From Croceibacterium aestuarii (GTDB taxonomy: Bacteria; Pseudomonadota; Alphaproteobacteria; Sphingomonadales; Sphingomonadaceae), in contig NZ_CP131039.1 of assembly GCF_030657335.1 (NCBI RefSeq), positions 558,001-622,000 on the forward strand: 64,000 nt of DNA. Reading direction: 5' to 3'. Position 1 is the first letter of the stretch. Each line of letters opens with the position of its first letter. The notes under the pieces are model-generated. The model was not told the origin of the DNA. It did not search any database and was given only the letters and a program-made list of their open reading frames with translations. Below are positions 34,442 through 56,376 of this stretch, piece by piece. Made by a program: the position numbers and the translations under genes.

Positions 34442-34449
34442 GCCGATTC

Positions 34450-35697: not shown

Positions 35698-35943
35698 TTT
35701 TGCGCACCCTGAACTTGAAGCGATAGAGGCGGCGGACTTGCTGCGCGCCATCCGCCGGAAAGCAACGAGAAAACGATGAAAGCCAAGCCCCTCGTCGGCC
35801 GCAACGCCGCTTAGTTGCATCCCGCCAGGATGTCGAGTACCGACTCACGCCAGGCCGACAAGCGGCGGGGGCTCTGAAGGAGTATGGGTCGCCGGATATG
35901 CCTTGTTTGGGTGTATTGGCACGCGGCGCGTTGGGATGAGGCT

Positions 35944-37341: not shown

Positions 37342-37489
37342 AATCTTGCCCCAACCGGACAAAACCCTTTCCCGCAGACATCGCGTGATTTTGCCTTTAC
37401 CCCCGAAGGCGTGAGCGCTAATGGCCCGCGCTTATTTGAGAAATCCGGCGGCGCAGGCTGCATCTAAGCCGGTGAAAGGATCCGCTAGA

Positions 37490-38212
37490 GTGAAGCTGTT
37501 CGTAACGCTGGCCGGGGCCAGCTTGGTGTGCTTAGTCTTGTCGGCCTGCGCGCACAACCCGGCCCTAGTAGAAGGGCCCGGCCTGAAGGTAGCGGAGAGC
37601 AGCGAACTTCCCGCTCCAACGGTCGGCGACACAACCGGGAGCGAGGGGCCCTATCGTATCGGTCCCTACGATACATTGAGCATTCAGGTCTACAATTTGC
37701 CAAAACTGAGCAACGACAAAATCCAGGTCGATGCCGGAGGCGGCATCGCTATTCCGCTGGTGGGATCGCTGGAGGCAGCGGGGCGGACGCCCGCTGAGTT
37801 GTCTGCGCAGATCACCTCAAGCCTTCGCGCGGCTGGCGTTCGGAAACCTGATGTCGCGGTGAATATGATCGAGATTTCAAGCCAGATCGTTACCGTGACC
37901 GGCGCAGTGCGCGAGCCGGGTAATTATCCGGTACAGCCGGAGATGACGCTCATGCGCGCCGTTGCGGCTGCGAAGGGTTCCACAGAATTGACCGATTTCA
38001 AACATGTCGTGGTGTTCCGCAATGTCGACGGGCAGCGGATGGCCGCGCTCTATAATGTCAATTCAATCCAGCGAGGCGTTTACGACGACCCGCGAATTTA
38101 TCCCAATGACGTCGTGGTAGTTGGCGAAAGCGCGTCGCGCGAAGTACTTCGTATCGTGGGGCAACTTGCGCCCGCAATCGTAACACCCCTCGTCTATTTG
38201 TTTACAAGGTGA
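37490..38212 (+). CDS. Polysaccharide export lipoprotein (Wza/GumB family)
   Basis: A 240-residue outer-membrane-associated export protein. Lipoprotein signal with lipobox LVLSAC; the polysaccharide export domain at about residues 50-130 (YRIGPYDTLSIQVYNLPKLS, IAIPLVGSLEAAGRTPAEL); then a SLBB-like domain (VTVTGAVREPGNYPV). The GTG at 37490 is chosen because AAAGGA lies nine bases upstream and the signal peptide then has normal length. It is shorter than E. coli Wza and lacks the C-terminal helix, as in GumB-type proteins. It precedes the tyrosine kinase by four bases. Confidence 0.9.
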   Translation: MKLFVTLAGASLVCLVLSACAHNPALVEGPGLKVAESSELPAPTVGDTTGSEGPYRIGPYDTLSIQVYNLPKLSNDKIQVDAGGGIAIPLVGSLEAAGRTPAELSAQITSSLRAAGVRKPDVAVNMIEISSQIVTVTGAVREPGNYPVQPEMTLMRAVAAAKGSTELTDFKHVVVFRNVDGQRMAALYNVNSIQRGVYDDPRIYPNDVVVVGESASREVLRIVGQLAPAIVTPLVYLFTR

Positions 38213-38216
38213 TTTG

Positions 38217-40412: not shown

Positions 40413-41601
40413 CGCCAAACGCCGGAGATGGCGAACCGGCGAGCTAATTCGAGTTGCGCTCATATGGATGTTGGCGGTCGCAATGGTCACTACCGTGACC
40501 GGCATCAGCCTCGGAACGGCGATCGTTTCGCGAGCGCCGAACGTGGTTGCCGCGCTGATGCCTTTCTTTGCCAGTTCGCATGATCGCTTCGCCGACGCCT
40601 TGGTGCAGGGCGGGATGATCGGCAAGCAGAACCAACTCATCCGATCGGAAGCCGCTGCGGCCCTGCGCCGCTCTCCCCTCATGGTCCACGCGGCAAGGTC
40701 GCTGGCGCTTGTGACCACGGAGCCACGGCAGCAGGCTGAAATCATGGCCTATGCCGATAGCCTCTCTCGCCGCGACTTGCTGACTAATACCTGGTTCATA
40801 GAGCAAGCCCACAAGGCCGGACAAATCGAGGAAGAATTGGCCCGGATCGACCTCGCGTTGCGCTCGTCGGCCAGCGGACAGACTGTGCTATTCCCTCTAC
40901 TGGCATCGCTCCTAACAAAGCCCGCCAATGAGCGGGCGATTGCCCGTCTCTTCGAAAGGCAGCCCAATTGGCTACCGGCATTCGTGGATTTTGCTGTCAG
41001 CCGCCGTCTGGCGACGGAACCCTTAACTGCCGCCCTGCGTGGCATCGCCATCGCTTCGCCACCGGGAAAGGATCTGCCCCAGTCGTTGGTGGACCTGCTC
41101 ATAGCCGAACACCATTACCACCTCGCTCTAGACTACGCCACCGAACGCGACCCGGCGCTAGCGTCAACCACTGGCTTTTTGCGTGATCCTTCCTTCGCTC
41201 GAGCAGAAGGCATCACTCCGTTTTCCTGGTTGTATGTTTCAAACGGGCTATTCGGCGCGCGACCGGCAGACAATGGTGTGGAACTTTATGGCAGCAGTAC
41301 CGCGGGCGGTGTGGCGCTTGGACAACTCGTGCTTCTGCGGCCAGGGCGGTACGAGTTGGAGACGCGCGGGCGCGTAGGAGGGGGAACGGCGAAATGGGTG
41401 GTCGACTGCGCGCCTCCAGCCAACAGGACGCTGACTGAACTAGAGATACCGCGCGACAACGAGCGAGTTGTCCAAACTGCATTCACCGTGGGGGCCGGCT
41501 GCCCAGCCCAGTTCGTGCGTCTCACGGTGCGTGCTAGCGAAACGTCAGCTGCTTTTGAGGGCAAGATCGTCGAAATACGAGTTTCCCAAGCGTCCGAGTA
41601 A
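40405..41601 (+). CDS. Membrane-anchored protein of unknown function in the polysaccharide locus
   Basis: A 398-residue protein with one N-terminal membrane helix (VALIWMLAVAMVTTVTGISLG, residues about 17-40), helical repeat-like sequence through about residue 250 (possible TPR-type scaffold), and a beta-rich C-terminal domain with GRYELETRGRVGGGTAKWVVDC...CPAQFVRLTVRA. Starts inside the Wzc stop region (8-base overlap), so it is co-expressed with the kinase and could be an accessory of the export machine. I do not recognise the family. Confidence 0.75.
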   Translation: MPDAKRRRWRTGELIRVALIWMLAVAMVTTVTGISLGTAIVSRAPNVVAALMPFFASSHDRFADALVQGGMIGKQNQLIRSEAAAALRRSPLMVHAARSLALVTTEPRQQAEIMAYADSLSRRDLLTNTWFIEQAHKAGQIEEELARIDLALRSSASGQTVLFPLLASLLTKPANERAIARLFERQPNWLPAFVDFAVSRRLATEPLTAALRGIAIASPPGKDLPQSLVDLLIAEHHYHLALDYATERDPALASTTGFLRDPSFARAEGITPFSWLYVSNGLFGARPADNGVELYGSSTAGGVALGQLVLLRPGRYELETRGRVGGGTAKWVVDCAPPANRTLTELEIPRDNERVVQTAFTVGAGCPAQFVRLTVRASETSAAFEGKIVEIRVSQASE

Positions 41602-41620
41602 CGCCTCCTCCGGTTTTGCT

Positions 41621-42796
41621 ATGAAGATTCTGCTACTTACCGCTTATTTTCCACCCGACCTTTCGGCTGGCTCATTCCGCTGCGAAGCGCTCGCCGCGGC
41701 CCTAGGCCGGGCCGACGAGGTGCACGTCGTCACCGCGCAACCGCATCGCTACGCTTCTCACACGGCCAGCGCCCCGAACCATCAAGTGCTAGGTCGTGTA
41801 ACGATCCATCGCGTACCCGTGCGGTCACACGACGGTTCAATGTTCTCTCAAGCCAGAAGTTACCTCGATTACGCGGTCGGAGCCCTGCGGTACGTTCACA
41901 GGCAGGATTATGACGTGGTGTTTGCAACGAGTTCTCGCCTCTTCACCGGAGTACTCGGCGCGGTAATAGCTACATGGAAACGGCGGCCGCTGTACCTCGA
42001 CGTTCGAGACATTTTTGTGGATACGCTCAAAGATGTTCTTACCCGGCGCGCGTTTTTCCTGGTTCGCCCGTTTGCGACCCTGCTCGAAAGGTTCGCAATT
42101 TCACGCGCTACGACGATCAACCTCGTATCTCAGGGGTTCGAGGACTATTTCCGCAATCGTTACCCAGGCGAGCACTTCACCTTTCTCACTAATGGCATCG
42201 ATGATTATTTTGTCGGCGCTCCCGTCAGAACCCAAGGGCGGAAATCCATTCCAGCAAATATCGTCTACGCGGGTAACATTGGCGAAGGCCAAGGCCTGGA
42301 ACACATCATTCCGGCGGCCGCGCGAAGGCTTGAAGGGCAGGCGATCTTTTCAATCTACGGCGAAGGTGCCCGCCGGCCCGCTCTCGAACGCAATTGCGCA
42401 CTGGCCGGAGTGCAAAATGTCTTGTTGCAACCTCCAGTTCCGCGCCATCGACTGCTCGAGGTCTACGAGAGCTGCGACGCCCTTCTGGTCCATCTCAACG
42501 CTTACGATGCCTTTCTGAAGGTCTTGCCGTCGAAAATTTTCGAATATGGCGCGCTGGGGAAACCCATCATAGCCGGAGTAGCTGGATATTCCGTGCAATT
42601 CCTGCGCGAACATCTGCCCGACGCTACCGTGTTTGAACCGCGGGACGTGGAAGGCCTCGTCACTGCAGTGAAGGGTTTGACGGAGGAATCGCCCAACCTC
42701 GATCGGACCGTTTTTGTCGCAAAGTTCCGACGCGACGCGATCAGCGAGCAAATTGCTCAAGGAGTCCGCCGAATAGCCGATACCTCTGCAGAGTGA
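41621..42796 (+). CDS. Glycosyltransferase family 4 (WbuB-like)
   Basis: A 391-residue GT-B glycosyltransferase with MKILLLTAYFPPDLSAGSFR at the N-terminus and the C-terminal nucleotide-sugar-binding half (IVYAGNIGEGQGLEHIIPAA, IYGEGARRPALE, VPRHRLLEVYESCDALLVHL, VLPSKIFEYGALGKPIIAG). The pattern resembles WbuB-type transferases that add amino sugars, but the donor and acceptor cannot be deduced. It acts on the cytoplasmic face during repeat-unit assembly. Only one clear transferase besides the initiating enzyme is present in the locus. Confidence 0.88.
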   Translation: MKILLLTAYFPPDLSAGSFRCEALAAALGRADEVHVVTAQPHRYASHTASAPNHQVLGRVTIHRVPVRSHDGSMFSQARSYLDYAVGALRYVHRQDYDVVFATSSRLFTGVLGAVIATWKRRPLYLDVRDIFVDTLKDVLTRRAFFLVRPFATLLERFAISRATTINLVSQGFEDYFRNRYPGEHFTFLTNGIDDYFVGAPVRTQGRKSIPANIVYAGNIGEGQGLEHIIPAAARRLEGQAIFSIYGEGARRPALERNCALAGVQNVLLQPPVPRHRLLEVYESCDALLVHLNAYDAFLKVLPSKIFEYGALGKPIIAGVAGYSVQFLREHLPDATVFEPRDVEGLVTAVKGLTEESPNLDRTVFVAKFRRDAISEQIAQGVRRIADTSAE

Positions 42797-42798
42797 CG

Positions 42799-44643
42799 CT
42801 ACCAGGTGACGCGGGTCTGAATTTCGGCAGGACGGTCGAACTCAACTTCGAGGACCGGAAGAGGGGTCTTTTCGAAGTAGTGCCGCGACTCCAGCCCGGC
42901 GACGACTTCAAATCGTACCGCTTCGACCTCACTCAAAACCGCAAGCGCGAAACGCCCCGACTTCACCGACCGGCCGTCCAGGTGCCAATCTCGCGGAGCC
43001 AACCGCCAGCGCAGAATCGCCTTATCGGCAAAGCCGCTTATGCAATCCTCCACTACCAGGGCCTGGTTCGACAGTTGAACCCGCCGTTCGTGCCGAGCCC
43101 CCCAGGCATCCCGGTAGCTAGCCGCGAAACGAGCCACAGGTCCGATAATGTCGAAGTTGAGGCCTCCTATCCGATTCCAGTCGCAAAAGAGAAAACGCCC
43201 AAGACGGGGCATCTGGTCGTGGTAATCGAAGGCGACAGTGTTATGCGAGCGCACACCGCTAAAGTAGTCTACCAGATCCGGTTCCGCCATGTAGCTGAAA
43301 CTCCCCCCGTCGCGCAGGACATTGAGGCCCGCGACCGTCAGGTCGACATGGAGGGCATCCGCCTGCGCCGGCCGGAACGAATAGCTGGGGACTCGAATGA
43401 GCGCCGAAGCTTGGCCACGGCGAAGGATCGCGAACCCCCCCGCTAAGGCCATGTAATCGCCAGGCGGCGGAGCAGCGGGTCCCTGCGGAACGACCCCGAA
43501 CGCCGTCAGGCCGTCGTTCCAAGGCCCCAGAGGGAAGGCCGGCCGCCCTAGAAAAAGGATCGATGCAAGTTGTACCGAAGGGCGATAGTCCCTGTATTCG
43601 GCGCACCCCAGGTCTAGAATTCGTGCGCCGTCGTTGTTGCCCACGTTTGGCACGTCGCCCGTACCGACATCGACTTGTGCACGTAGCCATTCGACCGCTG
43701 CCCGCGCCCTTTCCTGAAACCGGTTGGAAAACGCCGGTTGCTCGAAGCGCCTTCTCCAGAGTTCGGAGAGTGACAGCGTGTCAAGCAGGACCCGATGGTA
43801 ATTCGTCGAGTAGAGGCTAAACGTGCCCTGGCTGTCCACGAGCCGCGCAACGCGATTCTCCAACCAGAACCTTCCCTTTTCGCGCCATTTGGATGCCTGA
43901 TCATGACCGGCAAGAGAGGGCATCGTTCCGGCGATGAACAGCGCCGCCGCCTCCGAGGTTCCATGGTTGTTATCCTGGCCAATCGCATAGCCGATCGTCG
44001 GTTCAATTCGTTCGGCGTGCATTGCGATCAGGTCGGTCAGACCGGCTTCAGTGCTCTCGGCCTGCCCCAGCAAGAGGGCGGCCTGAGCCAGTTGCATTAC
44101 GCGAACCGATGCTTCCTGCCCACACTTCCAGTTCGCACCGAAGTACGGCTCGTTCTGGGCAAGCCAGCGATCTAGCCAGCCATTGAGTGTTGCCAAAGCC
44201 GACACATTGCCTCCGCGCGCTGCGCGAGCGAGCGCCGGGACCCAAGCCATCCGGGACAGTTCCCAGATCACCTTGATGTCTCCCACCTCTTGGTCGAAAT
44301 CGGGAATGTCCCACCATGGAGTGTGAGCGGAGCCGGCCCGGGCGCCTGTCAAGGGGTTGGACGTAAAATCTGGCCCCGACGCTGGCATCGCCAAGCGGAG
44401 GTACCCGAATAGCCGGAGTTCTCGTGACCAGTCGTGAACGTGTTCCGATCCATCCACATTTCCAATTGCTTCAGGCATGCGAAAAAAGGGGCCAGAGGTA
44501 GCCGTTGCTCGCAATTTTTGCACCCGATGAAATCGGAGCCTGAGAAGGGTCCGGTATAGAACAACGCGCGCAACGTTGTCCAAACCGAGATGCATCATGG
44601 TCCGTGCAGTTTGGAACACTCGGGCGAGCGGGCTCATCGCCAC
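42799..44643 (-). CDS. Heparinase II/III family polysaccharide lyase
   Basis: A 614-residue protein with an N-terminal alpha-toroid (about residues 100-350; NNHGTSEAAALFIAG contains the conserved Asn-His of the family) and a C-terminal beta-sandwich (HVDLTVAGLNVLRDGGSFSY, RSHNTVAFDYHDQMPR). It would cleave uronic-acid-containing chains by beta-elimination, either remodelling or trimming the exported polymer. There is no obvious signal peptide, which raises the question of where it acts. The ATG at 44637 is an alternative start. Immediately downstream of asnB. Confidence 0.85.
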   Translation of the reverse strand: MAMSPLARVFQTARTMMHLGLDNVARVVLYRTLLRLRFHRVQKLRATATSGPFFRMPEAIGNVDGSEHVHDWSRELRLFGYLRLAMPASGPDFTSNPLTGARAGSAHTPWWDIPDFDQEVGDIKVIWELSRMAWVPALARAARGGNVSALATLNGWLDRWLAQNEPYFGANWKCGQEASVRVMQLAQAALLLGQAESTEAGLTDLIAMHAERIEPTIGYAIGQDNNHGTSEAAALFIAGTMPSLAGHDQASKWREKGRFWLENRVARLVDSQGTFSLYSTNYHRVLLDTLSLSELWRRRFEQPAFSNRFQERARAAVEWLRAQVDVGTGDVPNVGNNDGARILDLGCAEYRDYRPSVQLASILFLGRPAFPLGPWNDGLTAFGVVPQGPAAPPPGDYMALAGGFAILRRGQASALIRVPSYSFRPAQADALHVDLTVAGLNVLRDGGSFSYMAEPDLVDYFSGVRSHNTVAFDYHDQMPRLGRFLFCDWNRIGGLNFDIIGPVARFAASYRDAWGARHERRVQLSNQALVVEDCISGFADKAILRWRLAPRDWHLDGRSVKSGRFALAVLSEVEAVRFEVVAGLESRHYFEKTPLPVLEVEFDRPAEIQTRVTW

Positions 44644-46497
44644 CTAGCTGAGGTAGGGGTCGAACTTGGCGATCCAAGTTTCGAGAGCCCAGGCAGAGAA
44701 AATTTGCCGATGAGCCACAGCCCGGTCGCCGACGAGGAACCGGTCCCATAGCCTTGTGAGGGCGGACCGATCGAGCAGCTGCCGATCAAAAATCGCTGCA
44801 TCTCCCCGGATCAAGCGGTCGACGGTTGCGCGCAGGGGACCCCGCAACCATTGCTCTTGTGGGTTAGAAAATCCCTGCTTGTCGCGTCGCCAGATTATTT
44901 CACGCGGTAATGCGCCCTCAAAGGCTGTACGCATTAAAGACTTGGTCCATCCGAGGTTGACCTTGAGCGAAGTCGGTAGGGAAAGGCCGAATTCGATAAT
45001 GCGGTGATCGAGATAGGGCAAGCGCACCTCCACGCCATGTGCCATTGACTGTCGGTCCTCATAGTGGGTGAGGTAAGGGACGGAAAAGCGTGCGATGTCC
45101 TCATACTGGCGCTCTGCGAGCGACTTGTTCCCTAGCGACACATCCCGACGTTTACGTGACGCCTTGGCCTGCACGCTCAGCGCCGATTCCGCGCGATTGG
45201 CCCAGGGAAAATAACGCTTCGCTTCGCTGTAATTGAGCTGACGCAGAACGGTTCCGGCTTCAATCGAACCAACCAGGTTGCCGAACGCCGCGCCCACGCG
45301 GGCCCGACGGAAATCATCGCGCAATGCCCAGAAGAAATACTTGCGATAGCCGCAAAACGTCTCATCCGCTCCTTGGCCACTGAGCGAGACGATCAAGCCC
45401 TGCTGCCGGGCCAGCTTCATCAAGCGGTAGAAGGCTACATTCGAGAAGCTTCCTAGCGGTGCATCGTTATGCCAGGTGACTTCCGCCAGCAGTTCCGCAG
45501 TGGTCTCCGGATCGGCTCCGAGATCAACCCGATGCGTGCTTATGCCGAGAGCTTCGCACACGCGATCAATATGTGCCGATTCATCGCCTTGTGCACCGGG
45601 GGAGACTGAGGACATCGCGTGCACTCTGGTTGGATCGCCGGTGACCTCTGCAATCAGAGCTGCGAGGATGCTCGAATCGAGACCGCCCGACAGCGTCAGA
45701 CCTACCGGGACATCCGCGCGCAAACGAATTGCGACGGAATCGTACAGTAGCTCGCGCAGCCGGACCTCGGCTTCAGCGCGGCTTGTCTCAACGGTCTCGG
45801 TCCCTGGGATCCAGTAACGTTCTGTAGCCAGAGAGGGTCCATCCTGACCAAACTCCACGCGTGATAAGGTCGCGGGAGGCAATTGAACGATACCATCTAG
45901 CCAGCTGCCGCCCGAGACGTCCTGAAGCCCCTGGTCGATGTAATCCGACAAGACCTGCAGATTGACGTTGAACCGCGATCCGGAAAGTGCCGCCACAGTC
46001 TTCATTTCCGACGCTATCACCAACCGGTCGGCAGAGCGCCAGACGTACAAAGGTTTTTCGGCGGCGCGATCACGCGAAATTTGGACGGAGTTCGCCAGTG
46101 CCTGGACGAACACCATAGACCACATGCCGTTTGCATCCATTAGGGTCTGGCCAAGGCCTTGCTGTTCGGCCATCTCAAGCAGTACTTCGGTGTCCGTTCC
46201 CGTCCGTCGTTGGCGGTGCAACTTGTCTGCCAGCTCGAGGTAATTGTATATTTCGCCATTGAAAATGATCACACTACTGCCGCTTTGCGAACGCATCGGC
46301 TGTATCCCGGCGGCAGACAGATCAAGTATTGATAGTCTTTGATGGCCAAGGAGCACTCGCCACCCATTGCTCAGCGTCGCAACCTCGTGGCACGCGGCGT
46401 CGGGACCTCGATGGCCTTGGAGACGGTTGGCCAGGGAAGCCATTGTATCCGCTTCGGCATCGCTGAAACGTCCTACGACTGCATAAATACCGCACAT
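44644..46497 (-). CDS. asnB: Asparagine synthase-type amidotransferase (AsnB family)
   Basis: A 617-residue protein with the N-terminal glutaminase (nucleophile Cys2 in MCGIYAVVGRF; RGPDA; INGEIYNY-like FNGEIYNYLEL) and the C-terminal ATP-dependent synthetase domain (LSGGLDSSILAAL, about residue 255). In polysaccharide loci such enzymes amidate uronic acids; the presence of wecB/wecC supports a uronamide product here. Amino-acid asparagine synthesis remains possible. Start overlaps the upstream polymerase-like stop by one base; the heparinase follows without a gap. Confidence 0.88.
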   Translation of the reverse strand: MCGIYAVVGRFSDAEADTMASLANRLQGHRGPDAACHEVATLSNGWRVLLGHQRLSILDLSAAGIQPMRSQSGSSVIIFNGEIYNYLELADKLHRQRRTGTDTEVLLEMAEQQGLGQTLMDANGMWSMVFVQALANSVQISRDRAAEKPLYVWRSADRLVIASEMKTVAALSGSRFNVNLQVLSDYIDQGLQDVSGGSWLDGIVQLPPATLSRVEFGQDGPSLATERYWIPGTETVETSRAEAEVRLRELLYDSVAIRLRADVPVGLTLSGGLDSSILAALIAEVTGDPTRVHAMSSVSPGAQGDESAHIDRVCEALGISTHRVDLGADPETTAELLAEVTWHNDAPLGSFSNVAFYRLMKLARQQGLIVSLSGQGADETFCGYRKYFFWALRDDFRRARVGAAFGNLVGSIEAGTVLRQLNYSEAKRYFPWANRAESALSVQAKASRKRRDVSLGNKSLAERQYEDIARFSVPYLTHYEDRQSMAHGVEVRLPYLDHRIIEFGLSLPTSLKVNLGWTKSLMRTAFEGALPREIIWRRDKQGFSNPQEQWLRGPLRATVDRLIRGDAAIFDRQLLDRSALTRLWDRFLVGDRAVAHRQIFSAWALETWIAKFDPYLS

Positions 46498-47723
46498 CAG
46501 CCCTGGCCCACCGGTTCTTCAGCAACGTCGGGCGCAGGAGTATTGAGTCTGACAAGCAAGATCAGCATCAGCACAACCTGGATCGTCCGATAGGATGCCT
46601 GAGTAAAACAGAAGACCACGATCAACAGCAGAGATAGGAAGGCGAACCACTCGCCATCCAGTAGCTTGCGCAAATATACCCTCGGGGCGACCACGTAAAA
46701 GTAAAGGCCCAAGCCAATCAGCCCCATTGTCATTGCCATGTAGGCGATCGAAGAGTGGACATACCCCACAGAGGCGACGTCCGACCCTTCATTTTGCTCG
46801 AGCCCGTAATATGTCACGGACCCGGGCACTTGCCACCCGATTCCCTTGCCGAAGATTGGCGAGTCCTTGAAACTTTCGAAAGCGTACGTCCATTCCATCA
46901 GGCGGGCGCCGTTAGCATCTGAACTCAACTGTTCGAAGCGGTTGGTCAACTGGAATGACCCAAAGACGCCGAAGTAGTAGAACGCGATGACACCCACGAC
47001 TAACGCGATGATCGCTAACAAGTTGAAGTGACGGATGCGTTCAAGAAAGTAGACTAGGATCGGAACCGACATCAGGGCCATGCCCGCGCGGTATCCGATC
47101 CAGATGTAGACATAGAACATCACCAGGACGAGAAGCCACCGATAAAGTTGCTTGAGGCCGCTGTCGCAAAAGAAAAGATACGGCACCATCACAAGTGGAT
47201 AGGGGAGAACTGCGTCCACCACGTGATAAGTTAGCCGCTGCCCGAAGACATCCTGGCCAGTAAGCTGCAATACGATGGCAGTAATCAGGATGCGAGCGAG
47301 CCAGAATAGTCCAGCAACGAACAAGGCGTCGCTCAACCATTTCCTATCAAACGCTGTGAGTGGAGGAAGGAATACCGCCAGGAGGAAAAACGTGAAGGGC
47401 GCAACGCCTCGAACCCATTCGGCGACACCCCAGCCGTTGCCAAGTAGATTGAAAACACTCACCAGCGCAAAGAAGAGAAAGGCCAACATGGCGAGGGTAC
47501 GGCCATTCGTTATCACGGGGCGAACTGTAGCGATCAGATACATCATCGTGCAGACCAAAACGCCGATGAACGCTAACGTACCCAAGTTCACCCCTGGGAC
47601 GTAACTCATGAATGACGAAGCAATGACGAGAATCCCAAACGGTTTCACGCCCGGACTGGTCAATACAACGGGTGCGAGAGTCGCCGGGACGGGGGGGAGC
47701 TGGTCGCTAGCCGCCATCTGCAT
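46497..47723 (-). CDS. Wzy-like polymerase / O-antigen ligase-related membrane protein
   Basis: A protein of about 408 residues with ten or more hydrophobic helices and a central loop region. The segment IGYRAGMALMSVPILVYFLER and the periplasmic loop FKDSPIFGKGIGWQVPGS, followed by YVHSSIAYMAMTMGLIGLGL, match the loose pattern of polymerases (R-x-G and H-S in the last loops). A candidate repeat-unit polymerase, in contrast to the ligase-like protein at 35944. Start codon uncertain (ATG at 47723 or 47717). It overlaps the acyltransferase end. Confidence 0.7.
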   Translation of the reverse strand: MQMAASDQLPPVPATLAPVVLTSPGVKPFGILVIASSFMSYVPGVNLGTLAFIGVLVCTMMYLIATVRPVITNGRTLAMLAFLFFALVSVFNLLGNGWGVAEWVRGVAPFTFFLLAVFLPPLTAFDRKWLSDALFVAGLFWLARILITAIVLQLTGQDVFGQRLTYHVVDAVLPYPLVMVPYLFFCDSGLKQLYRWLLVLVMFYVYIWIGYRAGMALMSVPILVYFLERIRHFNLLAIIALVVGVIAFYYFGVFGSFQLTNRFEQLSSDANGARLMEWTYAFESFKDSPIFGKGIGWQVPGSVTYYGLEQNEGSDVASVGYVHSSIAYMAMTMGLIGLGLYFYVVAPRVYLRKLLDGEWFAFLSLLLIVVFCFTQASYRTIQVVLMLILLVRLNTPAPDVAEEPVGQG

Positions 47724-48183
47724 TTGATCTAATCGCCTTGTATCCAGGTTCGGTCGTTCCAACGACCCTGGCTGGGGCCCCTACAATGACTGAATATGGA
47801 GGAAAAGACTGCAATACCACAGAATTTGCGCCGATGACCGAATTGGATCCGATCTCAATATCGCCAAGGACCTTTGCACCTGAAGCAATGTAGACGTCAT
47901 CGCCTATCCTTGGCGCAAGGTTTCGCTTCCGGCCAACGAATGCTTCCTTTGCACCGATAGTTATGGCCTGGCCTAGAAGGCAGCGCTCACCGACGCGGGC
48001 GCCAGCATGGACGACGACGACCAGCCCCCCATAGGCTAGGCGCGTGCCCTGCCCAATGGCGCAGGAGGAGGGCAATACGCACCGGGTCAGGGCGTAATTA
48101 GCCCGGTCGATCGACTTCGCGAGTCGATGCCATCCGCGCAGGTATGCGCCGCGGCCGAAGCGATAAAGCGTCATTGCATCCAT
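47707..48183 (-). CDS. Left-handed beta-helix acetyltransferase (serine-acetyltransferase-like)
   Basis: A 158-residue hexapeptide-repeat protein. Repeats IGQGTRLAYGGLVVVVHAGARV, then IGDDVYIASGAKVLGDIEIGSNSVIGANSVV, ending SVIVGAPARVVG, as in CysE/WcaB-type O-acetyltransferases. It probably acetylates a sugar of the polymer or a precursor. The ATG at 48183 has GAAAGG six bases upstream; the ATG at 48174 overlaps the flippase stop. Short length argues against biosynthetic CysE. Confidence 0.83.
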   Translation of the reverse strand: MDAMTLYRFGRGAYLRGWHRLAKSIDRANYALTRCVLPSSCAIGQGTRLAYGGLVVVVHAGARVGERCLLGQAITIGAKEAFVGRKRNLAPRIGDDVYIASGAKVLGDIEIGSNSVIGANSVVLQSFPPYSVIVGAPARVVGTTEPGYKAIRSNADGG

Positions 48184-49547
48184 TGCCAGCCTTTCACGAA
48201 TAGTGTGCTTAGCGCAAGAAGGCCTAAAAGGGCGGTGACGGCCAATGCCGTGCCACTGGAAAGCGCGATAGCCAGCCCGACGCCAGTAAGACAAGTCGCG
48301 ACGAGGGCCGAACGAAGAAAGTCCCTGGCGAACACGGTCGCGAGAAAGGTGGGGTAAAGCGACATACCGCCGAGTAAAGCATAAGCGTAGTCGGTTAGGT
48401 AAGTCGCGAAAAGGAGGAATCCCGCTATGGCGGCGGACCAGACGCCCACTCCGATTCCCACTACCTCGACGCCGCGGCGATGAATAAGAATCTTCTCGAA
48501 AATCGAACTGAATAATATGGTTGGATAGAGCGCGACAGCCACATAATATATGTGACTGCCCTTCGCGACGCCCCAATATGCGACGGCGACATCGGCACAT
48601 AGCCACGCGAAGCCTAGAGCGGCGAGAACGGGAGCAAATGGCGAAATGCTGACCATCAGGTCTCTCGGGCCAGATATGCCGCGGCTAATCCCATAGAGCG
48701 CCTTGGAATTGATCGGGCTTAGCGTGTAGCCGAGCACTGCAAAAGTCGTGAAGAGGCGCAAGACGCCCAATTCCCGATCTGTAAGCTGAAACGATGCCGC
48801 CAGAACGGCTCCATATGTTACCACAATCTGGAAGCCGGCGAACATCAACCGCGACGGGAGCTGGCGCAACATCTGTCGGGTCCCTTCCACTGTCGTTAAT
48901 GGAACGGGCGGACTCCGCAACTTCGGCCAGGCAAGAAGGCCAAGACCCATTGCCACTCCAAGACCATTGGTAATGGTCAATGCTAGGGCCAAATCGGTTC
49001 GACCGTTCAGAAACCATACCGCGCTGACGGAGAAGTTTATGGCACCGTAAGCGACGGCATAGGACAGCTGAGCGACCGGTGTGCCGATCTGGAAACAGAG
49101 ATTGAGCACGACTGTTGAGAGGAAGACCGTGATAAAAAGCGGCAGGTCGAACGGAACGTTGGCTGCTCCCGGTACGAAGCTACGAACGGCCGCTAGGGCC
49201 GCTAGCGCGCAAGCTGCCGTTACTGTCGAGGATCGGATCAACTTGCCAGGATCTCGTTCCGCCAGGGTTGATTCCGCAATGAGGTCGACAATCCGCTGCA
49301 CGACGAACGTGAGTGCGGTGGCCCCTACAAAGGTTCCGTACACCGTCAGGCCGAATAGCAGAGGATAGCCGTAAGAGACGATCATTGCGGAGCCGATTAG
49401 TGAGAGCTGCACGATTGGCGGGAGTAACCGCTCTATCAGTTGATGCAGGCCGCTCGACGACGCACCTCTGGGAATCGGCAATGCCGACTCCAGTTTTCCG
49501 CCTTTGAGATCTTGGGGCGCTCTCTCGTGCTCGCCAGTGTGTGACAC
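48171..49547 (-). CDS. Wzx-like polysaccharide flippase
   Basis: A 458-residue protein with about twelve hydrophobic helices and no soluble domain, such as LPPIVQLSLIGSAMIVSYGY near the N-terminus and paired helices through ALAVTALLGLLALSTLF at the end. Topology and context (between transferase, polymerase and acetyltransferase genes) fit the MATE/MVF-fold lipid-linked repeat-unit exporter. The sequence is weakly conserved in this class, so the assignment is contextual. GTG start at 49547 with AAGGG upstream; it is divergent from the sugar transferase. Confidence 0.65.
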   Translation of the reverse strand: MSHTGEHERAPQDLKGGKLESALPIPRGASSSGLHQLIERLLPPIVQLSLIGSAMIVSYGYPLLFGLTVYGTFVGATALTFVVQRIVDLIAESTLAERDPGKLIRSSTVTAACALAALAAVRSFVPGAANVPFDLPLFITVFLSTVVLNLCFQIGTPVAQLSYAVAYGAINFSVSAVWFLNGRTDLALALTITNGLGVAMGLGLLAWPKLRSPPVPLTTVEGTRQMLRQLPSRLMFAGFQIVVTYGAVLAASFQLTDRELGVLRLFTTFAVLGYTLSPINSKALYGISRGISGPRDLMVSISPFAPVLAALGFAWLCADVAVAYWGVAKGSHIYYVAVALYPTILFSSIFEKILIHRRGVEVVGIGVGVWSAAIAGFLLFATYLTDYAYALLGGMSLYPTFLATVFARDFLRSALVATCLTGVGLAIALSSGTALAVTALLGLLALSTLFVKGWQWMQ

Positions 49548-49766
49548 GGAACCCTTCGAGTACGGTTCGCGGCGCCTTCGGCACCGTCAACGTCCGCTAA
49601 CCGAGCGGCCCTAACAAAGGCTCCTCTCCTTGACCAGCGCAAATCCCGAGCCGCCCGAAACTTACGCTGCATGCCCTTAAGGCCGCGGGGGGTGACGTCA
49701 TTTCTCGTAACCGTCGACAATGGACAAGTACCCATGTCGCGTCTAAGTCGTCGTAAGGAGAAGCTT

Positions 49767-51077
49767 GTGGGCATGTATTTGGGTACGAGTATTCGCGCTG
49801 TACTGCGCGATAGGGAGCCGTCGCGCCCTTCCCGATTTTATGCCAGATTCACATTCGAGTTGCTCGGCGGTCTATGTCTTTCAGTGCTGGTTCCAAGCGC
49901 TGTCGGGGCCGCCTTCGTGAGCGGTTTTCTCGAGCAGGCGACTGCGATCAACACCATCGTTGCACTGACGTTGGCATACGTTTCATCGATGTTAGTGATG
50001 CGCACCATGCGCGGATTTCCAGGGGTGGAGCCCGACACATACCTCCTACCGGCATTCGGCATTGTTTATGCGAGCATTGTCGTGGCCATGGTGCTGCTTC
50101 GTTTCGAATACAGCCGCATTCTCCTGATCTCAGGAATCTTGCTGGGCATGTCGTGGAGTTACTTCGTAGCGATAGCTCGGTCGCGCACAAAAACGTATCG
50201 CATCGGAATTATCGATTACGGTGACCTGCATGATATTGCGGAAATCAAGCGCGTGAAATGGCATCGCGTGACCGAGCCCACAGATGTCGCCGACCTTCAT
50301 CTCGACGCCTTAGTAGCCGACTTCAGCGCAGACATCCCGGATCACTGGGAGGCTGCAATTGCGGAATTCGTCCTTCAAGGTTTACCTGCCTACCATGTTA
50401 AACAACTTAAGGAATCGCTAACGGGTATGGTGGAACTCGAACACTTGTCGGTCAACAGTGTCGGATCCCTCACTCCCACCCTTGCATATTTCCACCTCAA
50501 ACGAATTATCGACTGGATTTTGGCCGCTGTCCTGCTGGGGCCATTGCTCCCTGTGATGCTACTGGTCGCCGTGGCTGTGAAGCTCGACTCTTCGGGGCCA
50601 GCCATCTTCCGCCAGATTCGTGTGGGGTATCGCGGTCGCCCCTTTACTGTCTACAAGTTTAGGACAATGTACGCCAAGAGCGTACACACGGATCCAAAGC
50701 TGGCGGCCCAGACACAACATGGCGATCCGCGTATCACGCGGCTTGGACGCCTGTTACGCGCAAGCCGGCTCGACGAATTGCCGCAAGTTTTCAATATTCT
50801 CAAAGGCGAAATGAGCTGGATCGGACCGCGCCCGGAAGCGGCGATTCTGGCTGAATGGTATGAGCGAGAAATACCGTTCTTCCGATACCGCTATGTCGTA
50901 TTGCCGGGTATCACCGGCTGGGCTCAAGTCAATCAGGGTCACGTGGTGGAAGTGGCCGACGTGACCGGCAAACTTCATCACGATTTCTATTATATTACTC
51001 GCTTCTCCGCCGCGCTGGACTTGCTCATCATCTTCCGCACCATCCAGACAATGGTCAGCGGACGCGGCCATCGCTAG
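49767..51077 (+). CDS. Initiating undecaprenyl-phosphate sugar transferase (WcaJ/GumD family)
   Basis: A 436-residue protein that transfers the first sugar-1-phosphate to undecaprenyl phosphate. Four hydrophobic helices lie in the N-terminal part (up to about residue 130), a CoA-binding-like middle domain follows, then the bacterial sugar transferase domain from about residue 255: KRIIDWILAAVLLGPLLP, YKFRTMYAKS, ASRLDELPQVFNILKGEM, SWIGPRPE. GTG at 49767 is chosen because AAGGAG lies six bases upstream; ATG at 49734 is the alternative. The sugar specificity cannot be read from sequence. Confidence 0.92.
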   Translation: MGMYLGTSIRAVLRDREPSRPSRFYARFTFELLGGLCLSVLVPSAVGAAFVSGFLEQATAINTIVALTLAYVSSMLVMRTMRGFPGVEPDTYLLPAFGIVYASIVVAMVLLRFEYSRILLISGILLGMSWSYFVAIARSRTKTYRIGIIDYGDLHDIAEIKRVKWHRVTEPTDVADLHLDALVADFSADIPDHWEAAIAEFVLQGLPAYHVKQLKESLTGMVELEHLSVNSVGSLTPTLAYFHLKRIIDWILAAVLLGPLLPVMLLVAVAVKLDSSGPAIFRQIRVGYRGRPFTVYKFRTMYAKSVHTDPKLAAQTQHGDPRITRLGRLLRASRLDELPQVFNILKGEMSWIGPRPEAAILAEWYEREIPFFRYRYVVLPGITGWAQVNQGHVVEVADVTGKLHHDFYYITRFSAALDLLIIFRTIQTMVSGRGHR

Positions 51078-51080
51078 ATC

Positions 51081-52208
51081 TTAGTTGGCTCCTGCAAGCA
51101 AATCAGCTATCCTTTGCGCGGCGTGACCGTCACCGAAGGGATTGTGTGAGCGGGCCATTTCGCCGTATGCAACTACATCGTCCAACAGCCGTTCGGCTTC
51201 GGCCACGATTGCGTTCGCCTCAGTGCCAACCAGCTTCGCCGTTCCCGCCTCCACCCCCTCAGGCCGTTCCGTCGTTGAGCGCATTACTAAGACGGGCTTG
51301 CCGAGCGCTGGCGCCTCTTCCTGAACGCCCCCGCTGTCGGTCAGGATCAGCGTGGAGAGACGAAGCAAGTGGGCGAAGTGGGGATAGTCGAGAGGCTCTA
51401 TCATGGCGACGTTGTCGAGCCCAGCCAGCCGGTTGTTCATGACCTTGCGGACGTTGGGATTGAGATGAACGGGAAAGATTAGGGCGACGTCGTTTCGTTG
51501 TGCCAAGCGGCGAATTGCGCTGGCGATGTTTTCCATGCCCTCGCCGAAGTTTTCCCTCCGGTGCGTCGTGATGCCGATTATCCGTTTACCTTTGAAACGC
51601 GCTTCAATGTCGGCCAGGCCAGCTGCAAGCGAGGGGTCGCGCTCTATCCGACCCGTAATCCAGTGAAGTGCATCGATGACGGTGTTTCCGGTCACATAAA
51701 CCCTGGAGGGATTCACATTTTCGCGCCGCAGTGCCGCTGCAGCAGTTTCGGTTGGGGCGCAGTTGAGCGCAGCAATAGTTCCAATGATCTTGCGATTTAC
51801 CTCTTCCGGCCAGGGGTGGTGGATATTTCCGCTGCGCAGTCCCGCCTCGACATGGCAAACAGGAATTTTGCGATAGTAGGCCGACAAAGCTCCGACCATG
51901 GCTGTGGCCGTGTCACCCTGCACGATTACCCAATCAGGGCTTTCCGCATCCATAACCCGGCCCAGTTCGACAAGCAGCGTGGCGGTAAGTTGATCAAGCG
52001 ATTGATCCGGCTTCATCACGTCAAGATCGTGATCCGGCGCAATTGAAGCAATCTCTAGAACTTGATCGAGCATTGCACGATGCTGCGCACTGACGCAGAC
52101 CCTGCTAGCGAACCTGCCATCGCCGCCAAGCGTGTGTAATAACGGAAAGAGTTTGATCGCTTCTGGCCGCGTTCCGAAGATCGTCAGGGTTTTTATAGCT
52201 CGCTGCAT
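51081..52208 (-). CDS. wecB: UDP-N-acetylglucosamine 2-epimerase (copy 1, island side)
   Basis: Interconverts UDP-GlcNAc and UDP-ManNAc (non-hydrolysing type). The 375 residues show IFGTRPEAIKLFPL, HVEAGLRSGNIHHPWPEE, THRRENFGEG, and SDSGG-like TDSGGVQEEAPALGKP near residue 300. About 80% identical by eye to the second copy at 53792-54913, but with lower GC and different codon choices. Supplies the substrate for WecC encoded at 34450-35697. Convergent with the sugar transferase, three bases apart. Upstream lies only relic sequence. Confidence 0.94.
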   Translation of the reverse strand: MQRAIKTLTIFGTRPEAIKLFPLLHTLGGDGRFASRVCVSAQHRAMLDQVLEIASIAPDHDLDVMKPDQSLDQLTATLLVELGRVMDAESPDWVIVQGDTATAMVGALSAYYRKIPVCHVEAGLRSGNIHHPWPEEVNRKIIGTIAALNCAPTETAAAALRRENVNPSRVYVTGNTVIDALHWITGRIERDPSLAAGLADIEARFKGKRIIGITTHRRENFGEGMENIASAIRRLAQRNDVALIFPVHLNPNVRKVMNNRLAGLDNVAMIEPLDYPHFAHLLRLSTLILTDSGGVQEEAPALGKPVLVMRSTTERPEGVEAGTAKLVGTEANAIVAEAERLLDDVVAYGEMARSHNPFGDGHAAQRIADLLAGAN

Positions 52209-52390
52209 GAACTGGCCTTGTTGCTTTCTCGTCGAGATGGAAGGGCTGCAACGGATGTTTGGACAAATTGTCAACCCTTTACCGGTTACTTTCGACGATG
52301 GATGTCTAGAGGACTCTCATATTCCAAGTGGCAACTCTTCTCTTGCACTTTCAGGACGAAAAACCACGGAGGACGCAATGAGGGTGGCAA

Positions 52391-52611
52391 GACACCGGAC
52401 ACGATTCTGTCGTGGTCCCAGTCGAGTGCCACTGTGGCCCGTCGACGAACTCGAACGAATCCTCGCGAACAGCGATTGCGAATAAGGGGGTCTCGGAGGT
52501 CCCAAACTCGGATTTCCTCCGCGCGCGCATGAGGCGGTCGGCAATTTCAAGGGCCGACAGGATCGTCATCGGCCCCAGTGATGACTTTGACTCGGAAATG
52601 ATGGCGAGAGG
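52391..52611 (+). pseudogene. Relic of a UDP-glucose-type dehydrogenase gene (internal fragment, frameshifted)
   Basis: Reading two plus-strand frames recovers an internal piece of UDP-glucose dehydrogenase. Frame 2 gives DSVVV (52403-52417), frame 1 gives VPLWPVDELERILANSDC (from 52426), and frame 2 again gives GVSEVPNSDFLR and RADRIVIGPSDDFDSEMM (52490-52605). These line up in order with the intact ugd at 55066: DAVVV, VPVGTGDEVERIIAASGC, RVSVVSNPEFLR and RPDRIVIGAEDDFARETM. At least two frameshifts and a stop prevent expression, and both ends of the gene are gone. Confidence 0.75.
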
Positions 52612-52629
52612 TCTATCGGTCGCTGTTTC

Positions 52630-52698
52630 TCAACATATAGGTAGGCCGATGTAGCCGAGCCCGATGACCGAGACTTGCGGTAGGTTCTCGCCGCGCAT
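52630..52698 (-). pseudogene. Relic of a wecC-type dehydrogenase gene (first 22 codons)
   Basis: On the minus strand an ATG at 52698 opens MRGENLPQVSVIGLGYIGLP and then reads Ile-Cys-stop. SVIGLGYIGLP is the N-terminal dinucleotide-binding motif of WecC-type dehydrogenases and matches CMVGLGYIGLPTA of the intact wecC at 34450-35697. Nothing of the remaining 390 or so residues follows. Together with the ugd fragment facing it, this indicates a recombination endpoint between 52612 and 52640. Confidence 0.75.
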
Positions 52699-52786
52699 GA
52701 AGACTTTCCGTTGGATTGCGTGTGCCGCATCCCCTAGGCGCGGGACGGTAAAGATACCGGTAATGCTGCTGCATTAGAGGGCGCAT

Positions 52787-53791
52787 ATGCAAGTTCTGGT
52801 CACAGGGGCGGCAGGATTCATCGGCGCGGCGGTGTGCGAGCGCCTGCTGGCGCGCGGCGACCGGGTCACCGGGATCGACAACCTCAACAACTATTATCCT
52901 GTCAGCCTCAAGGAAGACCGCGTGGCCCGGATCAGGGCGGCCGCTGGCGGCGAGCGCTTCGATTTCCGGCAGCTCGATTTCAGCAGGATGGACGCGTTGA
53001 GCGGCGGCCTGGCCGATTGCGAATTCGAACGGGTGGTCCATCTCGGCGCCCAGCCGGGGGTGCGCTATTCGCTGGAGAATCCGCACGCCTACCTCGAGGC
53101 CAACCTCGCCGGGCACCTCAACATGCTCGAACTGGCGCGTGCGCGGCAGCCCGAGCACATGGTCTATGCCAGTTCGAGCTCGGTCTACGGCGGCAACGAG
53201 AAGGTGCCGTTTTCCGTCTCCGATCGCGTCGACCACCCCTATTCGCTCTACGCGGCGACCAAGAAGGCCGACGAGCTGATGAGCGAGACCTACGCCCATC
53301 TCTACCGCCTGCCGCAGACCGGCCTCAGGTTCTTCACGGTCTACGGCCCGTGGGGGCGCCCCGACATGATGCCGTGGATATTCACCGCGAAGATCCTCGC
53401 CGGTGAGCCGATCCCGGTGTTCAACAACGGCAAGATGCGGCGCGACTTCACCTATATCGATGACATCGTCAGCGGGGTCGTCGCCAGCCTCGATCACGCC
53501 CCGGCCGACGACGGCAGCGAGAAGCCCGGCGGCAGCCTCGCCCCGCACGCGATCTACAACATAGGCAACAATCGTCCCGAGCAACTGCTCGACGTCATCG
53601 GCGTGATTGAGAAGGCCTGCGGCCGCAAGGCGGTTCTCGACATGCAGCCGATGCAGCCGGGCGACGTGACGCAAACCTACGCCGATATCGACGCGATCCA
53701 GGCCGACCTCGGCTTCGCCCCCACAACGCCTGTCGAAGTAGGTTTCCCGCGCTTTGTGGAGTGGTTCAGGGCCTATCACGGCCTTGGCTGA
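52787..53791 (+). CDS. UDP-glucuronate 4-epimerase-type NAD-dependent epimerase
   Basis: A 334-residue short-chain dehydrogenase-type epimerase: GAAGFIGAAVCERLL at the N-terminus, HLGAQPGVRYSLENP, SSSSVYGG and the catalytic SLYAATKKADELM Tyr-x3-Lys, then GPWGRPDMMPWIF and the late RRDFTYIDDIV. NNYYPVSLKEDR and the PWGRPDMM loop are typical of UDP-GlcA 4-epimerases (LspL/WbnF). It would turn the product of Ugd into UDP-galacturonic acid. Native GC. Tail-to-tail with wecB copy 2 with no intervening base. Confidence 0.9.
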   Translation: MQVLVTGAAGFIGAAVCERLLARGDRVTGIDNLNNYYPVSLKEDRVARIRAAAGGERFDFRQLDFSRMDALSGGLADCEFERVVHLGAQPGVRYSLENPHAYLEANLAGHLNMLELARARQPEHMVYASSSSVYGGNEKVPFSVSDRVDHPYSLYAATKKADELMSETYAHLYRLPQTGLRFFTVYGPWGRPDMMPWIFTAKILAGEPIPVFNNGKMRRDFTYIDDIVSGVVASLDHAPADDGSEKPGGSLAPHAIYNIGNNRPEQLLDVIGVIEKACGRKAVLDMQPMQPGDVTQTYADIDAIQADLGFAPTTPVEVGFPRFVEWFRAYHGLG

Positions 53792-54913
53792 TCAGCTCGC
53801 GAGCAGATCGGCGATCCGGGCCGCGCTTCGCCCGTCTCCGAAGGGGTTGTGGGCCCGCGCCATGGCCGTGTAGGCGGCTTCGTCGTCGAGCAGGCGCTCG
53901 GCCTCCGCCACGATGCGGTCGGCATCGGTGCCGACGAGCTTCGCCGTTCCCGCCTCGACCCCTTCGGGCCGCTCTGTCGTCTCGCGCATGACCAGCACCG
54001 GCTTGCCGAGCGCGGGCGCCTCCTCTTGAACGCCGCCGCTGTCGGTCAGCATCAGGGTCGAGATCGCGATCAGCCGCGCGAAGTGCGGATAGTCGAGCGG
54101 TTCGATCAGGGCGACGTTGTCCAAATCGGCGAGCCGCTCATTCATCACCTTGCGCACGTTGGGGTTGAGATGGACCGGCAAGACCAGCGCCACATCGCCG
54201 CGTGCGGCGAGGCGGCGGATGGCCCCGGCGATTCCCTCCATTCCTTCGCCGAAGTTCTCACGGCGGTGGCTGGTGACCCCGATGATGCGCTTGCCGGCAA
54301 ATCGCGCCTCGATATCGGCCAGGCCTGCGGCGAGCCCCGGATCGGCCTCGACCCGCACAACGATCCAGTGGAGCGCGTCGATCACCGTATTGCCGGTGAC
54401 GTGGATGGTCGCGGGATCGACATTCTCGCGCCGCAGCGCCGCCGCCGAAGTCTCCGTCGGCGCGCAATGCAGCGCGGCGATCGTGCCGATGATCTTGCGG
54501 TTCACCTCCTCGGGCCAGGGATGATGGATGTTGCCGCTCCTCAGCCCCGCCTCGACGTGGCACACAGGAATCTTGCGGTAGTAGGCGGCGAGCGCCCCGG
54601 CCATCGCGGTGGCGGTGTCGCCCTGCACAACGACCCAGTCGGGCCGCTCTTCATCCATCACCCGGCCAAGGCCGATGAGCAGCGCCGCGGTGAGCCCGTC
54701 GAGGGTCTGGTCGGGCTGCATCAAGTCGAGGTCATGATCGGGCGCGATCCCCGCGATCTGCAGCACCTGGTCGAGCATTCCGCGGTGCTGCGCGCTGACG
54801 CAGACGCGGCTGTCGAAGCGCCTATCTGCCTCGAGCGCGTGGACCAGCGGGAATAGCTTGATCGCCTCAGGCCGGGTGCCAAAGACAGTAAGGGTGCGTT
54901 TGCGGCCGCTCAT
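53792..54913 (-). CDS. wecB: UDP-N-acetylglucosamine 2-epimerase (copy 2, chromosomal side)
   Basis: A 373-residue paralogue of the enzyme at 51081-52208, with the same motifs (FGTRPEAIKLFPLVH, HVEAGLRSGNIHHPW, SHRRENFGEG, TDSGGVQEEAPALGKP). High-GC codon use typical of the surrounding chromosome. Whether both are needed is unclear; copy 2 may be the ancestral one. Divergent from ugd and convergent with the epimerase. Confidence 0.94.
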   Translation of the reverse strand: MSGRKRTLTVFGTRPEAIKLFPLVHALEADRRFDSRVCVSAQHRGMLDQVLQIAGIAPDHDLDLMQPDQTLDGLTAALLIGLGRVMDEERPDWVVVQGDTATAMAGALAAYYRKIPVCHVEAGLRSGNIHHPWPEEVNRKIIGTIAALHCAPTETSAAALRRENVDPATIHVTGNTVIDALHWIVVRVEADPGLAAGLADIEARFAGKRIIGVTSHRRENFGEGMEGIAGAIRRLAARGDVALVLPVHLNPNVRKVMNERLADLDNVALIEPLDYPHFARLIAISTLMLTDSGGVQEEAPALGKPVLVMRETTERPEGVEAGTAKLVGTDADRIVAEAERLLDDEAAYTAMARAHNPFGDGRSAARIADLLAS

Positions 54914-55065
54914 CCAGCCGCCCTTAGCCCAATTCGGTTAATCGCGCGCTTACTTTGCCCGCTCGGGCGGGAATTGCTTCAGACATCGTTTGACGATAGC
55001 GCACACCAACTTCTCTCGCGCAACTGCGGGTGAGCGAGCTCCTGGCGCTAAACGGACGGAATTTC

Positions 55066-56376
55066 ATGAAGATCGCAATGGTTGGCTCCGGCTACGTCGG
55101 CCTCGTGTCCGGCGCCTGTTTCGCCGATTTTGGGCACGATGTGGTCTGCATCGACAAGGACCAGTCGAAGATCGATCGTCTTCGCGAAGGCGTGATGCCG
55201 ATCTACGAGCCCGGGCTCGACAGCTTGGTCGAAGCGAACGTGAACTCGGGACGTCTGACGTTCACCACCGACCTCGCCGAAGCAATCCACGGCGCGGCCG
55301 CCATCTTCATCGCTGTCGGCACCCCGAGCCGGCGAGGTGATGGACATGCCGACCTTTCGTTCGTGTACGCCGTAGCGCAGGAAATCGGCGAGACGCTGGG
55401 TAACGATGCCGTCGTCGTCACCAAGTCGACGGTCCCCGTCGGCACGGGCGACGAGGTCGAGCGAATTATCGCCGCCAGCGGCTGCAAGCACCGCGTATCG
55501 GTCGTCTCCAACCCCGAATTCCTGCGCGAAGGCGCGGCGATCGGCGACTTCAAGCGGCCCGACCGGATCGTCATCGGCGCCGAGGACGATTTCGCTCGAG
55601 AAACCATGCGCGAGGTCTATCGGCCGCTGTTTCTGAACGAATCTCCGATCCTTTTCGTCAGCCGTCGCAGCTCGGAACTCATAAAGTACGCCGCCAATGC
55701 CTTCCTCGCGACCAAGATCACCTTCATCAACGAGATGGCCGACCTGTGCGAGAAGGTCGGAGCCAACGTGCAGGACGTCTCACGCGGTATCGGCATGGAC
55801 AACCGCATCGGGCCGAAGTTTCTCCACGCCGGCCCGGGCTACGGCGGCTCGTGCTTTCCCAAGGACACGCTCGCGCTGCTCAAGACCGCGGAGGACTACG
55901 ACAGCCCGGTGCGCATCGTCGAGGCGGTGGTGAAGGCCAACGAGAGCCGCAAGCGGGCCATGGGTCGCAAGGTGGTCGAGGCGCTCGGCGGGATGGAAGC
56001 GGCGCGCGGCAAGCAGGTCGCGCTGCTGGGCCTGACCTTCAAGCCGAACACCGACGACATGCGCGATTCGCCGGCCATCGCAGTGGCACAGACCCTCATA
56101 GATGCCGGGGTAACAGTAAAGGCCTACGATCCCGAGGGCATGGAGCTGGCAAAGCCGCTGATGCCACAGGTCGAAATGGCGCAGAGCAGCTATGAAGCGA
56201 TCGAGGGCGCCGACGCGGTGGTCATCGTCACCGAGTGGGACGCCTTCCGCGCGCTCGACCTCAAGCGGGTGAAGGACCTGGCCAGGGCCCCCCTGCTCGT
56301 CGACTTGCGCAACATCTACCGTCCAGACGACGTGCGTTCGGCGGGCTTCACCTACGTGAGCATCGGACGCAACTGA
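55066..56376 (+). CDS. ugd: UDP-glucose 6-dehydrogenase
   Basis: Oxidises UDP-glucose to UDP-glucuronic acid with two NAD. The 436 residues have MKIAMVGSGYVGLVSGACF, STVPVGTGDEVERI, SNPEFLREGAAIGDFKRPDR, the catalytic Cys in GYGGSCFPKDTLAL, and LLGLTFKPNTDDMRDSPA. The ATG at 55066 fits the usual N-terminus; a longer in-frame extension is unlikely. With the epimerase at 52787 it can supply GlcA and GalA residues to the polymer. Confidence 0.95.
   Translation: MKIAMVGSGYVGLVSGACFADFGHDVVCIDKDQSKIDRLREGVMPIYEPGLDSLVEANVNSGRLTFTTDLAEAIHGAAAIFIAVGTPSRRGDGHADLSFVYAVAQEIGETLGNDAVVVTKSTVPVGTGDEVERIIAASGCKHRVSVVSNPEFLREGAAIGDFKRPDRIVIGAEDDFARETMREVYRPLFLNESPILFVSRRSSELIKYAANAFLATKITFINEMADLCEKVGANVQDVSRGIGMDNRIGPKFLHAGPGYGGSCFPKDTLALLKTAEDYDSPVRIVEAVVKANESRKRAMGRKVVEALGGMEAARGKQVALLGLTFKPNTDDMRDSPAIAVAQTLIDAGVTVKAYDPEGMELAKPLMPQVEMAQSSYEAIEGADAVVIVTEWDAFRALDLKRVKDLARAPLLVDLRNIYRPDDVRSAGFTYVSIGRN

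Follow-up and report, generated by a model that had tools for sequence, protein, structure and literature searches.

The 64,000-nucleotide stretch of the Croceibacterium aestuarii genome analysed here (the window) contains two facing gene remnants that are likely to be a scar marking the right boundary of an exchanged polysaccharide block, at which a resident wecC was cut and its stump fused to a ugd fragment that had already decayed. The scar is genuine, but as a pseudogene remnant of past gene swaps it is an ordinary one. The features on which this reading draws are as follows.

33638..34441, plus strand: fabI-like enoyl-ACP reductase, the left flank common to relatives (comparison with relatives)
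34450..35820, minus strand: wecC_w, an intact, diverged wecC at the left block end, adjoining fabI (NF008286, 583.5 bits, over cut-off)
34450..52400, no strand assigned: ~18-kb polysaccharide block of low GC3, ending on the right near 52400 or at 52634 depending on the source of the ugd fragment
51081..52208, minus strand: wecB1, a second UDP-GlcNAc 2-epimerase, at the right end of the low-GC3 block (Pfam, NCBIfam); its open reading frame runs to 52274, with a likely ATG at 52208
52401..52634, plus strand: frameshifted ugd pseudogene fragment lacking both ends, codons about 125-203 of 448
52635..52639, no strand assigned: 5-base junction, matched to neither gene in most relatives compared, G018 extending its wecC match to 52638
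52640..52698, minus strand: wecC stump, codons 1-19 plus two bases (DNA match to wecC of relatives)
52699..52786, no strand assigned: spacer separating the starts of wecC and capI, resembling that of C. soli, where wecC is intact
52787..53791, plus strand: NAD-dependent sugar epimerase (Pfam; 80% identical in C. soli, at the same place), which we take to be capI-like, all NCBIfam equivalog models falling below cut-off
53792..54913, minus strand: wecB2, the resident UDP-GlcNAc 2-epimerase (Pfam, NCBIfam, relatives)
55030..56376, plus strand: intact ugd-type nucleotide sugar dehydrogenase (TIGR03026 over cut-off; the best named model, TuaD, under its cut-off)

Identity of the two fragments

A preliminary description of this DNA had recognized a frameshifted internal ugd fragment on the plus strand, and the DNA bears this out, with the fragment ending at 52634, 23 bases past the claimed 52611. 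Upon DNA alignment the fragment was 72% identical to the intact ugd at 55030-56376 (E 1.8e-21), and its local alignment score was 134, whereas none of 300 single-base shuffles scored above 31. When 52275-52786 was searched against its own genome at E <=0.001, only the query itself and the intact ugd matched; among 98 genomes (own included) 16 matched, that is 15 of the 97 others, through the ugd portion, the wecC portion or the two together. Relative to the intact gene, a MAFFT alignment places six frame-shifting indels in the fragment (deletions of 2 bases at three sites; insertions of 1, 2 and 1 bases) and mismatches at 65 of 230 bases, and six-frame translation of 52200-52800 finds the ugd pieces scattered over several plus-strand frames. 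The UDPG domain was absent from four translated pieces of this region (three plus-strand, one antisense; Pfam, E up to 10), and the case for ugd thus rests on DNA alignment. One of these pieces matched EGL-1 (E 0.68), a chance-level match to an unrelated family, and the 92-residue minus-strand frame that lies beyond the wecC stop reads the ugd fragment in antisense. Compared with UDP-glucose 6-dehydrogenase genes (Ugd/TuaD-like, TIGR03026; PF03721/PF00984/PF03720), 52401-52634 aligns to the gene middle and the similarity is clear; however, the six indels have destroyed the complete frame with NAD-binding, central and UDP-binding domains, both ends are gone, and the fragment is no longer a gene. 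By these alignments, its identity as a decayed internal piece of ugd is confirmed.

Upon six-frame translation the minus strand from 52698 to 52630 reads MRGENLPQVSVIGLGYIGLPIC followed by TGA (52630-52632), a frame of 22 codons that had been taken as a wecC start in its entirety. Codons 1-19 plus two bases do belong to wecC, but residues 21-22 and the stop derive from the junction. Compared with the intact wecC of Croceibacterium salegens, the stump is identical at 56 of 59 bases, or at 57 of 60 (95%) when the one base before the start codon is included (52640-52699). DNA identity to other wecC starts is 87% in Altererythrobacter segetis (G003), 85% in G051 and 81% in G018, and longer matches of the region extend over 127 bases (72%, G008) and, including the upstream spacer, over 125 bases (76%, C. 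soli). The fragments had been expected to align to PF03721/PF00984 proteins; in addition to the missing UDPG domain of the ugd pieces, PF03721 reached only E 0.012 on the translated stump, which is under the cut-off. As the Pfam evidence was weak for both fragments, DNA alignments were used instead, and these carry both. The stump shares with UDP-N-acetyl-D-mannosamine dehydrogenase WecC (NF008286) its start codon, first 19 codons with the NAD-binding motif, and upstream spacer, but lacks the rest of a gene of about 420 codons, leaving about 95% of the resident wecC missing. This remainder was not found in the own, single-contig genome with C. salegens wecC as query, the only matches being wecC_w (63%), ugd (29%) and the stump (87% over codons 1-23). 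The assignment of 52640-52698 to the start of wecC is likewise confirmed by DNA comparison. As had also been noted earlier, both families have intact members nearby, namely ugd at 55030-56376 and wecC at 34450-35820.

Unequal decay

The two fragments differ strongly in their state of decay. Between the ugd fragment and the own intact ugd, changes are found at 21 of 76 first, 11 of 78 second and 33 of 76 third codon positions, whereas the intact own ugd and that of C. salegens differ at 2 of 78 first, 3 of 79 second and 27 of 79 third positions. First and second positions combined are thus changed at 32 of 154 sites in the fragment versus 5 of 157 in the intact pair (p 9e-7), from which it follows that the fragment has decayed without selection. 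The stump, in contrast, differs from C. salegens wecC at 0, 0 and 3 of its first, second and third positions over 59 bases, so that 0 of 40 first and second positions are changed as against 32 of 154 in the ugd fragment (Fisher p 0.0005), in a comparison that is uneven, the ugd fragment being set against a paralogue and the stump against an orthologue at different distances. Against eight other relatives 2 to 8 of the first and second positions of the stump differ, and as the stump is only 59 bases long, its age rests on 40 sites. Since the ugd fragment is far more decayed, wecC was probably cut recently, beside a piece of ugd that was already dead. The preliminary description had seen here a recombination endpoint where two dehydrogenase genes were cut. 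The end of a recombination or deletion does lie at this place, but, given the unequal decay, a single event that cut both genes while they were live is not supported.

The same slot in relatives

The stump could be placed by comparing the junction with related genomes, as had been proposed, through the intact wecC of C. soli and C. salegens. The loci compared were the 80 best of 464 DsbB relatives in Sphingomonadales, from which wecB and wecC matches below 55% identity, and matches best fitted by wecC_w, were dropped as weak; many of the stretches end before fabI, so the locus counts are lower bounds. In all 80 loci picked by DsbB g56 is present, and the contents beyond it differ. Shared flanks with variable content in relatives, a mark of an exchanged locus, are therefore present. 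Across loci L061-L140, the polysaccharide genes in the slot from fabI to g56-dsbB-prc (33638-58107 in the window) range from no searched gene before fabI (11 of 80 loci) up to sets of wecB, wecC, capI, ugd and wzy-wza-wzc.

A native-type wecC occupies the slot in 37 of the 80 loci, two of these genes being cut by a contig end, and in 16 loci wecC is the nearest to fabI of the 14 genes searched. The order wecB-capI-wecC with an intact wecC (coverage >=96%, no internal stop) is found in four (L066, L068, L110, L111). C. soli (G001/L034, L066) carries fabI, wecC, capI, wecB, g56, dsbB and prc in this order, its wecC being open and directed away from capI; C. salegens (G004/L033, L061) carries wecB, wecC and then ugd, with wecC and ugd both intact and tail to tail. 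Because relatives carry wecC at this position, the stump is most simply read as the start of the resident wecC, still in place. A ugd is present in the stretch in 3 of the 80 loci, and wecC is convergent with ugd in 1. The window's own intact ugd lies between wecB2 and g56, where no ugd turned up in any of the 80 named loci; the ugd of C. salegens, 92% identical to it, adjoins wecC instead.

The low-GC3 block

The coincidence of the scar with a step in GC, already proposed, was upheld by third-position composition: the 11 block genes tested (34450 to 52208) have GC3 values of 0.54-0.68, and the seven flanking genes tested, which are fabI, capI, wecB2, ugd, g56, dsbB and prc, have values of 0.80-0.86. 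A composition break at the scar, as a mark of the edge of an exchanged locus, is thus present. At the left edge, the similarity to C. soli breaks off at 34446, five bases past fabI. Inside the block a heparinase II/III-like gene adjoins an asparagine-synthase-like gene (42799-46497).

To look for a donor, wecC_w and wecB1 were run against 149 genomes from the family and 396 from the order (own counted in each), with strict E-value limits and few candidates scored per genome. For wecC_w, 28 of the 396 genomes, own included, passed the limit, and no relative listed was above 66% identity; for wecB1, none of the matches listed exceeded the 81% of the own wecB2. In a midpoint-rooted tree wecC_w stands apart from 35 native wecCs, and in a tree of 56 sequences wecB1 groups, on a long branch, with wecB2 and the wecB of C. 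salegens (support 0.972). With wecB1 grouping within this genus, a remote origin of the block is not evident, and the grouping argues against a very distant donor for the right end. The only repeat shared by the two block edges is a 14-base stretch that is the common wecC start motif of the stump and wecC_w, and no repeats of at least 14 bases were found inside 52150-52850; no repeat was found that would explain the join. The genes wecB1 and wecB2 are themselves direct copies, 2.7 kb apart with the scar in between (75% DNA identity over 300 bases, 51094-51393 versus 53799-54098; proteins 82.6% over 367 residues), and form a possible recombination site.

Source of the ugd fragment and alternative explanations

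In a tree of 33 sequences, from which L061 was left out as the same gene as L033, the ugd fragment lies beside the own ugd on a long branch with a support of 0.717, too weak to name a source, and by plain identity L148 is marginally closer (72.2%) than the own ugd (71.7%). Two alternatives, each overlapping the preferred explanation so that their odds are not exclusive, assign the fragment to different sources. As a tentative alternative, a convergent pair of resident genes, ugd on the plus and wecC on the minus strand, may have lost both 3' parts in one simple deletion of about 2 kb, the block then ending to the left of the ugd fragment. The intact convergent pair of C. salegens, in the same place and orientation, agrees with this, as does the GC3 of the fragment (0.75), which is above that of all 11 block genes tested. 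However, this GC3 fits neither level cleanly (p 0.055 versus 0.64; p 0.023 versus 0.85), the convergent arrangement occurs in that one locus of 80, the decay of the two fragments is unequal, and a single 3' deletion would not explain the missing 5' part of the ugd fragment.

The other alternative, held with similar reserve, is that the fragment was the donor's ugd, truncated on entry of the block and standing back to back with wecB1 as ugd does with wecB2. The divergent wecB-ugd layout is the same as that at 53792-56376, and the grouping of wecB1 and, weakly, that of the fragment would allow a genus mate as the source of both. However, this layout occurs in none of the 80 named loci, 3 of which show ugd in the stretch compared, and the 192 bases between wecB1 and the fragment resemble neither the wecB2-ugd stretch (a score reached in 199 of 300 shuffles and, in reverse, in 216 of 300) nor ugd codons 1-125 (reached in 182 of 300). 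With the C. salegens ugd in this place and facing wecC pointing to the resident genes, and the own back-to-back wecB2-ugd pair pointing to the incoming block, the two layouts suggest different sources. The earlier proposal that the locus replaced, or was inserted into, a previous set of sugar genes stands for wecC, whose place is known from relatives and where the block now lies, but the ugd fragment may belong either to that set or to the block. Sequencing or assembly error, for which no support was found, is extremely improbable: the ugd fragment has six indels and is mismatched at 65 of 230 bases, and the wecC start breaks off after 20 codons, its remainder not being found elsewhere in a genome assembled as a single contig.

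Discussion

The preferred model proposes an ancestor with wecC beside capI and wecB, as in C. soli. The low-GC3 block of ~18 kb, which carries a diverged wecC of its own at one end and likewise a wecB at the other, would then have been placed between fabI and the resident wecC; the layout of the block is shown by comparison, and the insertion event itself is what we infer. A deletion or illegitimate join would have taken the resident wecC after codon 20 and fused its stump to a ugd fragment which, judging from the unequal decay, was already decayed at the time of fusion. The history may thus have been an exchange at a fixed slot that was followed by, or joined through, a deletion in the resident wecC. 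UDP-ManNAcA dehydrogenase would have been kept by way of the block's wecC, and UDP-glucose dehydrogenase by way of the intact ugd, as far as family membership indicates; loss of the resident wecC would be tolerable because wecC_w is present. The scar itself is most likely without function.

Judged by titles and the opening lines of abstracts, none of the publications listed in a literature search dealt with this locus. A partial parallel is offered by the capsule loci of Vibrio parahaemolyticus, which are reported to include wecB and wecC in two copies in K17 and a gtaB pseudogene in K58, the second wecB/wecC copies being put down to duplication (PMC7829505). The likeness lies in a variable polysaccharide locus with two wecB, two wecC (one a stump here) and broken pathway genes. 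However, the bacteria and the slot are different, and wecC_w is too diverged for a recent duplication.

The scar locates the right end of what seems to be an exchanged block with a precision of a few hundred bases and helps to separate resident from incoming genes, and it cautions that adjacent gene stumps need not share one age. In addition, the comparison marks the fabI to dsbB slot as a site of varying polysaccharide genes among the Sphingomonadales relatives examined. It is a rather doubtful extension that blocks entering this slot bring substitutes (wecC, wecB) for the pathway genes broken on entry. If true, resident copies could be cut out without loss of sugar precursors, and the stump would record the order of events.
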